A DNA stretch of 64,000 nucleotides, from NCBI RefSeq assembly GCF_010093225.1, contig NZ_PDWM01000007.1, positions 1 through 64,000 of the forward strand, given 5' to 3'. This DNA comes from Pseudoxanthomonas koreensis. Its GTDB lineage: Bacteria > Pseudomonadota > Gammaproteobacteria > Xanthomonadales > Xanthomonadaceae. A program made the translations under genes and the position numbers. Below, piece after piece: positions 20,256 through 24,522 of this stretch (within the stretch, counting starts at the first letter, position 1; each line of letters opens with the position of its first letter). The notes under the pieces were generated by a model. The model saw nothing but the letters and a program-made list of their open reading frames with translations. It made no database searches and was not told the origin of the DNA.

Positions 20256-22550
<2,295 letters not shown>

Positions 22551-22582
22551 GCGGGGTAACGATTTTCTGACCGTGCATTCGG

Positions 22583-22611
22583 AACCGGCCTATCCATAGG
22601 CCGGTTTTGTT
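22583..22611 (+). terminator. Intrinsic terminator of maeB
   Basis: A 10-bp perfect stem AACCGGCCTA / TAGGCCGGTT with loop TCCA runs into TTGTT, 33 bases after the maeB stop. Confidence 0.85.
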
Positions 22612-22690
22612 ATGAGATAGGTAGACGGCCGACCAAGTCGGTCGCGCGGGCCAGGGTGGCCCGATGCGCAAACAGCCAAGGAGTGGTGTC

Positions 22691-22936
22691 ATGCGTAGTC
22701 TCAAAGAGTCAGAACTCAATATGGTGGCTGGCGGCAACGGCGCATCTACGAATAGCGCAGCCCGGGATGCGGCCATCAAGCAATGCCGTGGACTGCCCGA
22801 CAACACGAAAGTCAAATTCACGATCCAGATTTCGTCGAACGTCAGCGGGAAAGTAAGTGGAGTTGGTGGTGCGGCCACTACGACCCAGACGGTCGAGATC
22901 GAAACCACTTGCGGTGAACTTCGAAAGGCCGCTTAG
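22691..22936 (+). CDS. Putative secreted peptide with double-glycine leader
   Basis: An 81-residue protein whose first 15 residues, MRSLKESELNMVAGG, match the leader consensus of class II bacteriocins and related peptides cut after Gly-Gly by C39-peptidase ABC exporters. The remaining 66 residues hold two cysteines (32 and 74), basic and polar sequence (NTKVKFTIQISSN) and a Gly/Ser/Thr-rich middle. AAGGAG lies seven bases before ATG 22691, a strong ribosome site; a longer frame from upstream lacks one. Base composition is richer in A and T than the neighbours. No C39 transporter is in the window. The leader call is from pattern; antimicrobial, signalling or other function is unknown. Confidence 0.7.
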   Translation: MRSLKESELNMVAGGNGASTNSAARDAAIKQCRGLPDNTKVKFTIQISSNVSGKVSGVGGAATTTQTVEIETTCGELRKAA

Positions 22937-22943
22937 GCCGAGA

Positions 22944-22974
22944 AGCGGCACGTGTCCTTGAGGCGCGTGCCGCT
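22944..22974 (+). terminator. Hairpin between the leader peptide gene and the HExxH gene
   Basis: A 9-bp stem AGCGGCACG / CGTGCCGCT with a 13-base loop starts eight bases after the peptide stop and is followed by CTCCTATTCC rather than a T run. It could reduce, but not fully stop, transcription into the next gene, or protect the peptide message. Confidence 0.45.
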
Positions 22975-22995
22975 CTCCTATTCCGGGACGTGACG

Positions 22996-23820
22996 ATGGG
23001 CGTATTCAATCCTGGGGCTTTCATCATGCAGGCTCTTGTCGTCGCCATTGACCCCTCGATATGGACACCCGCAGGTGCGATCGCATGGCCCGGCCAAGAA
23101 AGGGCGGTAACCGTGGTGGATACCAGTCAACCGGACTACGCAGGTCAATGCGCATCATTGCTGCAAATCCAACGTCCCAATAGCGCTGGCTATTCGTTTC
23201 GAATGGGTGAGGAATGCCAAAAGCTCTTTGTCTTCATGGACCTTGGTGGAGGGGTCAATGGAGGGGAGCCATCGATCTGGTTCCTTGCGCGCCATGAATC
23301 CTTTCATATTGCTGCACAGATGTACGGCAGCAGGATTCCTGTCGATTTCATTCAGATCGACCCGGAATTGGTTCGTGACTTTTCTGATGGCACGGAGTTC
23401 GCCGGGCTCTACCACGAGCTTGCGTTGCTGACGACCAGCATCGTAAATGGATCTCCGCGATCATGTAAAAGCGTGGAGCTCGCCTACGTATCGTTGAGCG
23501 AGCGATCACGCACGTATCTGGACTACAAGATATTTTGGGAATGGCCAGCGGAGTTCTATGCTCAACAGGCAAGTTTCCCCGGTGATTTCGGCAAATACGA
23601 GTCCTTTAGGTCGCAGCTTTATGTTGGCGGCGATCCTGGCTATGAACTGTTCGTATCAGGAGTCAGAACCGGACTGGCTCTGGACGCCTTGGTTGGCAGG
23701 TCGAATTGGCAATCCGATGTAGCGCAAGGACAATCGATGTTCCACCTGCTTATGGCTCATGGTGGATGCCAATCCAGAAAGTTCGACCCTACAGTCCGCA
23801 TGAGGCGGGTAGAGCTTTGA
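22996..23820 (+). CDS. Putative HExxH metalloprotein, unknown family
   Basis: A 274-residue protein I do not recognise as a whole. WFLARHESFHIAAQM contains H100-E-S-F-H104, the zinc signature of gluzincin metallopeptidases, in a helix-like setting. Glutamates at 182 and 186 in WEWPAEFYA could provide the third ligand. A hydrophobic stretch near residues 9-18 (FIMQALVVAI) is short for a signal peptide, so location is unclear. Cysteines at 51, 74, 157 and 258 might form disulfides if exported. GTG 22990 is an alternative start two codons upstream. It follows the double-glycine peptide gene by 59 bases and shares its composition, suggesting a processing, immunity or effector role (inference). 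Confidence 0.6.
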   Translation: MGVFNPGAFIMQALVVAIDPSIWTPAGAIAWPGQERAVTVVDTSQPDYAGQCASLLQIQRPNSAGYSFRMGEECQKLFVFMDLGGGVNGGEPSIWFLARHESFHIAAQMYGSRIPVDFIQIDPELVRDFSDGTEFAGLYHELALLTTSIVNGSPRSCKSVELAYVSLSERSRTYLDYKIFWEWPAEFYAQQASFPGDFGKYESFRSQLYVGGDPGYELFVSGVRTGLALDALVGRSNWQSDVAQGQSMFHLLMAHGGCQSRKFDPTVRMRRVEL

Positions 23821-23939
23821 CCGACTGGCTGTGATTTCCCGGCAGGCTGTTCATGCGGGGCATCATTGTGATGAGTGTAATGAGGCCAGTAGTGTCGCCA
23901 ATGATTGAGGGCGGCTCATCCCATCCAGAGGGCATTCGG

Positions 23940-24083
23940 ATGCCGAAGACCAGGAAGCTGGATGTCGCCATAACAGGCGTATTGTTGACTTTCTTCATGG
24001 CGTGGCATTACCGCGCGGACCTTGTCGAGGTGTGGCGCGCAGCTGCGAAGACCAGCGCTGCACTCGTCCAGGAGTGCGAGTAG
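23940..24083 (+). CDS. Small putative membrane protein
   Basis: A 47-residue ORF starting MPKTRKLD with a single hydrophobic segment, VAITGVLLTFFMAWHY, and a positively charged N-terminus, so the C-terminal helix would face outwards. AGAGGG lies six bases before the ATG. The frame is open further upstream to an ATG at 23853, and that longer version contains a second Gly-Gly (SPMIEGG). It lies downstream of the HExxH gene on the same strand and shares its composition. Small single-pass proteins often act as immunity proteins in peptide systems, but nothing here proves that. Confidence 0.4.
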   Translation: MPKTRKLDVAITGVLLTFFMAWHYRADLVEVWRAAAKTSAALVQECE

Positions 24084-24132
24084 GTCGTGGCAAGCCTAGA
24101 TGGCGGCCGGGTTGTTCCGGCGTGGGGCCGCC

Positions 24133-24522
24133 TCAATCCTCGTCATCCCCTTCCACGATCTTCCTCTGCATCGCATCCAGGTACGCGTCCGCTTCGGCCA
24201 TCGAGGTGAAGATCTCGCCCAGTGGCACGGCCTTGACCATGTCGAACACCTTCTGGATCTGCGGCTGCGGGTTGACCACCAGCACCTTGCCGCCACGTGC
24301 CGACAGCGCCTTGCGTGCCTTGAACACCGAGCGGATGCCGGCGCTGCTGATGTAGTCCAGGCCGGCCAGGTCCAGCACCAGCGAGGTGACCGCGTTGTTG
24401 GCCAGCAGCGGTGCCAGGGCCTGGTCCAGTTCGGCGTAGGTGTGGGTGTCCAGGCGGCCGCCGATGGCCACGCGCTGGCGGCCGCTGGAAGGGGGGGCGA
24501 TCTCGGTCCGCAGGTTGCTCAT
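24133..24522 (-). CDS. STAS-domain anti-sigma-factor antagonist
   Basis: A 129-residue single STAS domain. LVLDLAGLDYISSAGIRSVFKA matches the phosphorylation loop of SpoIIAA/RsbV-like antagonists, with serines 59 and 60 as candidate phosphosites. An acidic tail (EGDDED) ends the protein. Its ATG overlaps the stop of the upstream phosphatase/kinase gene by four bases, so the two are made together; that protein carries both a PP2C-type phosphatase and an RsbW-like ATPase, the two enzymes that would set this protein's phosphorylation state. No sigma factor lies beside it. Confidence 0.88.
   Translation of the reverse strand: MSNLRTEIAPPSSGRQRVAIGGRLDTHTYAELDQALAPLLANNAVTSLVLDLAGLDYISSAGIRSVFKARKALSARGGKVLVVNPQPQIQKVFDMVKAVPLGEIFTSMAEADAYLDAMQRKIVEGDDED

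Follow-up and report, generated by a model that had tools for sequence, protein, structure and literature searches.

Class II microcins exported through a C39-type ATP-binding cassette (ABC) transporter, a membrane fusion protein and TolC (microcin V, CvaAB) combine a precursor carrying a double-glycine (GG) leader with a peptide-adjacent partner gene, and the confirmed immunity proteins of this class are inner-membrane proteins of 51-216 amino acids (PMC9746304). In Xanthomonas, which belongs to the same bacterial family as the organism described here, a GG-leader peptide is handled by a C39-type ABC/HlyD pair (RaxX/RaxAB); RaxX is one tyrosine-sulfated 60-residue peptide clustered with RaxST (PMC6637879). 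Bacteriocin loci may also contain CAAX proteases (CPBP/Abi, PF02517), some of which are reported to give bacteriocin immunity (PMC9298176). Here we analysed a 64-kb window (the whole stretch of DNA under analysis) from the genome of Pseudoxanthomonas koreensis (3.05 Mb in 93 contigs; labelled G000), in which maeB is followed by the genes for a GG-leader peptide (P0001), an HExxH protein (P0002) and a small protein with one hydrophobic stretch (P0003).

The locus shares with the class II microcins a GG-leader precursor, a C39-ABC transporter with a membrane fusion protein and a peptide-adjacent partner, and three sequence features of that class were found: a GG-type leader, a C39-ABC protein with Cys, His and Asp motifs, and an HlyD-type fusion protein. 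It differs in that P0001 has no NCBIfam match above the cut-off, the exporter is not adjacent in the window, and the partner is a 274-residue HExxH protein rather than an inner-membrane protein in the small size range given above. In contrast to the single RaxX, several unrelated peptides occur here at one site with protease-like partners, and no tyrosine sulfotransferase of the RaxX type was found by Pfam among the genes beside P0001, a search of the neighbours only and not of the whole genome. A protease-family gene lies directly 3' of a GG-leader peptide, as in the CAAX-protease loci, and in six relatives a PF02517 member takes this position, whereas P0002 is an HExxH protein without a Pfam match to PF02517 up to E 1. 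P0001 belongs to a new peptide family and P0002 to a new family of partners, with an export system of a known kind. Among the top-ranked matches listed in mostly open-access literature (titles and beginnings of abstracts), none dealt with GG peptides of Pseudoxanthomonas that have an HExxH partner, or with a hotspot at maeB. The reading that we prefer, with a probability of roughly 0.5, is that P0001 may be an exported bacteriocin-like peptide and P0002 a protease for self-protection.

The P0001 peptide family and its HExxH partner

P0001 (Table 1) was the sole match to a strict pattern of GG leader plus ribosome-binding site on both strands of the window, and none occurred in 20 first-order Markov copies, the pattern having been composed after P0001 had been read. 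Direct reading confirmed the coordinates, the lengths, the strong AAGGAG site and the position of HESFH given by an initial annotation of this DNA. A profile of 12 peptides (A2) found the family, P0001 included, in 7 of 395 sampled genomes of the bacterial family; six further rows of the peptide search (G111, G216, G093, G178, G230 and G231; E 0.001-0.01) were dropped because the profile search came back without them. Met1, Gly14, Gly15, Cys32, Pro36, Asp37, Cys74, Gly75 and Arg78 are invariant in the 12-row alignment, and the two conserved Cys (Cys32 and Cys74) belong to the 66-residue core. The Gly-Gly leader recognised in the annotation is real: Gly14 and Gly15 are kept in all 12 aligned peptides.

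None of the three proteins matched Pfam at E 1, or any family of PHROGs or PADLOC at 0.01. In NCBIfam, nothing exceeded the cut-off for P0001 (two sub-threshold families, E 0.15 and 0.22), and P0002 and P0003 gave no match; the 12 family peptides together reached four sub-threshold families, the best of which was a RibA model (0.0086), while a CTB bacteriocin model was matched by two members (0.017). The earlier statement that core peptide and protease belong to no familiar family holds for Pfam and NCBIfam above their cut-offs and, for P0002, also for the PDB. A model of the peptide had a mean predicted local distance difference test score (pLDDT) of 59.1, and was set aside unused.

A profile of nine P0002 homologues (A1) matched 10 of the 395 family genomes and 6 of 17 genus genomes, and in the order sample 4 of 398 genomes, all four within the genus; since the order- and family-sample searches scored six candidates per genome, distant relatives may be missed. 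The matches comprised nine intact genes, a remnant in G136 (maeB site) and a fragment in G647, the last of which was excluded (44 residues, E 4e-5). Two further candidates (G022, E 0.004; G076, E 0.009) were dropped, the profile search having returned without them. Relatives include Pseudoxanthomonas suwonensis J47 (two loci) and DSM 17175.

HExFHxxxQ and EWPAxxY were invariant in all nine aligned homologues (the G136 remnant stands outside the alignment), the full set of invariant residues being Trp23, His100, Glu101, Phe103, His104, Gln108, Cys157, Glu182, Trp183, Pro184, Ala185, Tyr188, Arg205, Gly222, Trp238 and Gly245. A non-conserved HESFH, which the initial annotation would have taken as refuting its proposal, was therefore not observed (HExFH, 9/9). 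Of Glu182 and Glu186, which it proposed as a third ligand, the former is invariant and lies in a modelled helix, whereas the latter varies. In an AlphaFold2 model from four sequences (mean pLDDT 67.8; by blocks of ten, at least 80 for residues 121-250, 58-77 for 91-120, and below 50 for 1-66), HESFH lies in helix 90-110 (pLDDT about 67-77) and Glu182 in helix 169-193 (about 87-89), a placement that would be as expected of a two-helix zinc site. The invariant HExxH is as in gluzincin metallopeptidases, and the invariant Glu on a second modelled helix would correspond to their distant Glu; on the other hand, P0002 has no Pfam match, no related PDB sequence and, with this model, no PDB fold match at E 0.001, and the EWPAxxY motif is its own. 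P0002 itself matched no PDB sequence (its alignment gave two unrelated ones, E 0.17 and 0.27), and the nine homologues reached only three unrelated sub-threshold Pfam families, one member each. The likeness of P0002 to gluzincins is one of motif only.

The 12 P0001-type peptides correspond to nine loci, and the HExxH gene is adjacent in seven of these: the window's, those of G227, G203 and G198, both the maeB-site and the C39-site locus of G155, and the maeB-site locus of G087. Distances between peptides and between HExxH proteins were correlated over the seven loci (Mantel r 0.611, 118 of 5040 permutations; r 0.684, 72 of 5040, with the other peptide of two-peptide loci), although this correlation is confounded by species history, which counts against our reading. 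Among four maeB-site copies, identity was 52-71% in the peptide core and 37-52% in P0002. The proportion of nonsynonymous differences (pN; 0.24-0.43) was below that of synonymous ones (pS; 0.64-0.78); synonymous divergence (dS) is saturated, and therefore only this statement, and no dN/dS, is supported. The co-travel of peptide and HExxH protein proposed in the annotation was borne out by the seven loci; P0001 and P0002 are a real pair, and their pairing is well supported.

Export locus and intergenic hairpin

A C39-ABC transporter, for which the initial annotation had advised a search elsewhere in the genome, was found on contig C53. Two proteins of the window genome matched PF03412, this transporter (702 residues) and a C39-like protein of 238 residues on contig C21; the former contains by eye the expected Cys, His and Asp motifs (ECG, NHFVV and DPA), the triad of C39 peptidases (PMC9746304). 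An HlyD protein was detected by Pfam on contig C55, where the order is hlyD, a 53-residue GG peptide, the start of a transposase and the contig end. On C53, the remainder of such a transposase comes first in the direction of the transporter, followed by a GG peptide (L047 8280-8429), a gene for a small hydrophobic protein and finally the C39-ABC gene; a matching insertion element with HTH_Tnp_1 and rve domains is present in L038. Because C55 (L053 7803-8121) and C53 (L047 8280-8844) both end in such a transposase, the export locus (hlyD, GG peptide and C39-ABC) is present and has probably been split by an rve/HTH_Tnp_1 insertion element.

A relative of the C39-ABC transporter was found in 16 of the 17 genus genomes. 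P0001-type peptides lie between hlyD-like and C39-ABC genes in G155, G087, G203 and G198 (hlyD-like genes were named by likeness, Pfam having been applied to that of C55), in G155, G203 and G198 together with the HExxH gene, and in G010, G215 and G172 the C39-ABC gene itself is located 3' of maeB. The predicted export of P0001 is well supported. The second C39-like protein of the window genome (L048 4950-5666) has a signal-like start and no ABC part, and adjoins a long repeat-rich protein; we take this locus to be reminiscent of a functional-amyloid locus.

The gap between peptide and partner genes tends to fold. In ten such gaps, including the window's, each minimum free energy fold was better than those of shuffled sequences (z between -2.46 and -6.48, with 0-3 of 200 shuffles equally good). 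Perfect stems of at least 10 bp occurred in 12 of 20 gaps (1280 bases in total), compared with 8 in the 64-kb window (0.125 per kb), some gap ends in this count depending on uncertain starts; two of the other gaps had shorter stems (7 and 9 bp) and six had no stem of at least 7 bp. These six were the window's and that of G172, whose imperfect stems are visible in the folds, and those of G249, G247, G203 (M23) and G227 (CPBP), which lie outside the ten gaps folded. The hairpins vary in sequence and keep their position across loci; they may be attenuators or processing sites, and may act as a brake on partner expression.

The maeB site and the origin of P0003

The end of maeB was visible in 16 of the 17 genus genomes, and 15 of these had at least one GG-leader peptide 3' of it on the maeB strand in a range of 2.5 kb (1.2 kb in G249, owing to the contig end); the exception was G136, which carries the HExxH remnant. 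There were 24 such peptides on the maeB strand, and the opposite strand had none over these stretches; chance open reading frames were rejected on this bias and on the absence of strict GG-leader matches from the 20 Markov copies. With 13 C39-site loci, of which six (the window genome's included) gave none, 41 peptides (24 + 17) were collected and sorted into families according to the similarity of their cores (phmmer, E < 1e-3); the scan missed, by range or motif, several peptides that were read by eye (L047 8280-8429; L039 7678-7926 and 9075-9332; L044 8587-8880). The site downstream of maeB is a genus-wide hotspot and, in our preferred reading, an exchange site for peptide-plus-partner units.

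A given peptide family usually comes with a particular partner: an HExxH, a CAAX-protease-like or an LspA-like protein, or a leaderless relative of the peptide. In this assignment, made by hand and not blind from listings of open reading frames and leaving some peptides without a called partner, a six-member family (G010, G113, G203, G215, G227 and G239) had a PF02517 neighbour above the cut-off in all six cases, the peptides of G248 and G249 had a PF01252 (LspA-like) neighbour (2/2), a peptide rich in Gly and Ala, judged by eye to be similar between G239 and G203, had a PF01551 (M23) neighbour at the C39 site (2/2), and pairs of peptides A and B were accompanied by a leaderless protein, I, in 5/5 genomes (G087, G172, G227, G247 and G250), A and B of G250 standing outside the families joined by score. 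A weak PF02517 match in G155 (E 0.0024) was below the cut-off.

The LspA-like proteins (L104 4013-4528 and L102 261-782) are encoded directly 3' of a GG-leader peptide with a hydrophobic core, and could be extra targets or proteases. The M23 proteins (L108 4976-5941 and L039 9485-10285) follow the Gly/Ala-rich GG-leader peptide in a C39 export operon. In G188 (L109, reverse strand), five GG-leader peptides with short, mostly proline-rich cores stand in a row about 80-1200 bases after the C39-ABC gene, followed by a PF02517-like open reading frame (L109 170-619). Two proteins alike by eye (L035 7145-7552 and L044 8950-9459), the first of which had no match in Pfam, are encoded near GG peptides in a C39 export operon and are possibly another partner family.

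In the window, the order is maeB, a hairpin, P0001, P0002, P0003 and then an operon on the opposite strand (including a SpoIIE/HATPase protein by Pfam). The three genes are richer in A and T than their neighbours, as the initial annotation had said: GC content was 0.553, 0.535 and 0.590 for P0001, P0002 and P0003, respectively, against 0.685 for maeB, 0.718 for the downstream operon and 0.698 for the window, and GC at third codon positions (GC3) was 0.598, 0.571 and 0.771 against 0.948 for maeB and 0.926 for the operon. With a GC3 above those of P0001 and P0002, P0003 is nearer the host in composition. The terminator that the annotation placed after maeB corresponds to a hairpin that folds well, and would set the cassette apart from maeB; the strong hairpin between P0001 and P0002 is an addition to that annotation. 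A consensus promoter/terminator scan of 22500-24200, whose counts were similar to those of shuffles, found no promoter-like site upstream of P0001 and listed neither this hairpin nor that at 22940. A plasmid origin of P0002 was rejected (plasmid search without match), as was a viral one (no viral-contig match confirmed; no PHROG family at 0.01).

Table 1. Features of the maeB-downstream locus in the window.
Feature	Coordinates	Strand	Description
Hairpin 3' of maeB (putative terminator)	22580-22609	+	13-pair stem, 4-base loop, 3' arm ending in UUUUG; fold z -5.15
Ribosome-binding site of P0001	22678-22683	+	AAGGAG, by direct reading
P0001	22691-22936	+	81-residue precursor with a GG leader; residues 1-15 (22691-22735) form the leader, the remaining 66 the core
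Hairpin between P0001 and P0002 genes	22940-22977	+	fold z -2.85; 2 of 200 shuffles as good
P0002	22996-23820	+	274-residue HExxH protein; HESFH (residues 100-104), codons 23293-23307
EWPAEFY of P0002	23539-23559	+	Glu182, 23539-23541
P0003	23940-24083	+	47-residue protein with one hydrophobic stretch; orphan of type I, the leaderless relative in two-peptide units

P0003 is related to the I proteins. A model of five I proteins found nine I genes (the five included) in eight genomes among 33 stretches searched, and then matched three A peptides (E 2.4e-6 to 2e-4). Over the C-terminal 28 residues, each of 12 of the 15 A-I pairs was equalled by no more than 6 of 2000 shuffles; the remaining three pairs, which all involve the A of G172, were equalled by 55-94, and the 15 B-I control pairs by 26-1802. 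The I of G087 and both I of G172 scored best with the A of their own locus, the exception to this rule being the I of G247 (34 with its own A, 47 with the A of G087). P0003 scored 41, 29 and 38 against the three A peptides, and its closest relative ends the order A, B, I at the maeB site of G247; because of this similarity and this position, P0003 is identified as an orphan I gene. Units of A and B with an I protein are found at L105 2308-2870 and 6383-6535, L037 9557-10132 and L103 4280-4916, and orphan I genes also in G249 (no clear start codon; the contig ends) and G188. Near P0003 in the window, no remnant of an A or B peptide scored above shuffles (best 21; mean 21.5 and maximum 31 in 200 shuffles).

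By its sequence relationships, P0003 is outside the HExxH unit, as an orphan of a two-peptide unit, and the role of immunity or anchor protein of the pair assigned to it in the initial annotation was not borne out, since it belongs to a separate unit that is intact in other genomes. Its parent unit resembles class IIb two-peptide bacteriocins: peptides A and B, both with a GG leader, are encoded side by side, and a small protein with a single hydrophobic stretch comes next. It differs in that this last protein is related to peptide A but has no leader. To our knowledge, no bacteriocin or class IIb locus with a leaderless relative of the toxin peptide has been described. The I protein possibly confers protection as a retained copy of the toxin.

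Function of the pair

In the self-protection reading, the C39 domain of the C53 exporter, working with the HlyD-type adaptor of C55, would cut the P0001 leader after Gly14-Gly15, and the 66-residue core would leave the cell, its two conserved Cys probably forming one disulfide. P0002, zinc-metallopeptidase-like by HExxH and Glu182, would protect the producer by cutting or binding the peptide; the gap hairpin would probably hold P0002 expression lower, and P0003 would be a leftover protection gene of another unit. Protection is favoured because the slot is shared with CAAX-type proteins, an HExxH gene is found in an exporter-less genome, and five of the nine homologues (G198, the second copy of G155, G203, G166 and G086) have a signal-like N-terminus by eye and hydropathy. 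HExxH genes without a P0001-type peptide beside them were those of G086, G166 (about 0.5 kb from a C39-ABC gene) and the G136 remnant; that of G086 is intact and alone, with its signal-like N-terminus, in a genome without a PF03412 match at 1e-5.

Several observations weigh against this reading. Two peptide loci, the C39 site of G087 (whose HExxH gene is at the maeB site) and G113, have no HExxH neighbour, so that the separation of HExxH gene and peptide, which the initial annotation had regarded as grounds for refutation, is in part the case, with G086 alone on the other side; the seven adjacent loci remain. A PF02517 protein without a called GG peptide of its own lies 3' of the HExxH gene of G087 (L037), the ribosome-binding site of P0002 is weak as read by eye, its 274 residues exceed the range of confirmed class II microcin immunity proteins quoted above, and its model, of moderate confidence, matched no PDB fold (Foldseek, E 0.001). 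The maeB-site copies of G227 and G087 have no hydrophobic N-terminus, and in those of the window and G155 a hydrophobic stretch is present (mean hydropathy 2.28 and 1.97, respectively) but no basic residue precedes it; a cytoplasmic P0002 would need to meet the precursor or a re-entering peptide, which is the weakest step of the protection reading. In addition, the deletion of SilX, the CAAX protease next to one bacteriocin locus, pointed to processing and away from immunity (PMC9298176).

A wider form of the self-protection reading, which we hold only tentatively, is that the slot for self-protection at the maeB site may be filled by interchangeable proteases of unrelated fold (HExxH, CAAX-type and LspA-type, joined by M23 at the export locus), or else by a toxin relative without a leader, P0002 being a peptidase that destroys its own exported peptide and P0003 a toxin-mimic class of protection.

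That P0002 is instead a maturation protease, which would cleave the peptide once more either before its export or afterwards, seems unlikely. The four maeB-site N-termini described above (two without a hydrophobic stretch, and two more, the window's included, without a preceding basic residue) would suit a cytoplasmic enzyme, and SilX has been linked to the processing of a signal peptide rather than to immunity (PMC9298176). However, leader removal is already done by C39 domains (PMC9746304), two peptide loci manage without an HExxH neighbour, and protection fits better than maturation because G086 retains an intact HExxH gene without adjacent peptide or PF03412 match.

We consider it doubtful, and rather less probable still, that the peptide is a signal that P0002 turns over or senses. 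C39-type exporters carry peptide pheromones as well as bacteriocins (PMC6637879), and the core is better kept than P0002 among the four maeB-site copies; the occurrence of several unrelated peptide families with unrelated partners at one site is more like antagonism, and no receptor or regulator was recognised among the open reading frames read in the cassette.

An arrangement in which the HExxH protein is the active enzyme and the peptide its inhibitor or carrier is improbable. Protease-inhibitor gene pairs are a known arrangement, and the five signal-like N-termini would suit it, but the peptide has a GG leader of its own and relatives in C39 operons, P0002 of the window shows no convincing export signal, and an HExxH neighbour is missing from two of the peptide loci.

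Least credible is the three-gene acquired cassette of the initial annotation (peptide, protease and small immunity or anchor protein, co-inherited as one unit), for although one AT-richer stretch of 1.4 kb holds all three genes, relatives of P0003 follow A and B peptides in G247, G087, G227, G172 and G250, occur at the maeB site without P0001 or P0002 in G249 and G188, and are absent from the stretch searched around the maeB-site P0001-P0002 pair of G155.

The pair of P0001 and P0002 adds to the genus a new family of predicted exported two-cysteine peptides with a tied HExxH family, and offers a clear genetic test. The hotspot downstream of maeB supplies matched sets of peptide and partner, and within a single genus these allow proteases of several unrelated types to be examined as possible immunity proteins; the leaderless relatives of peptide A suggest that protection may also come from a retained copy of the toxin.
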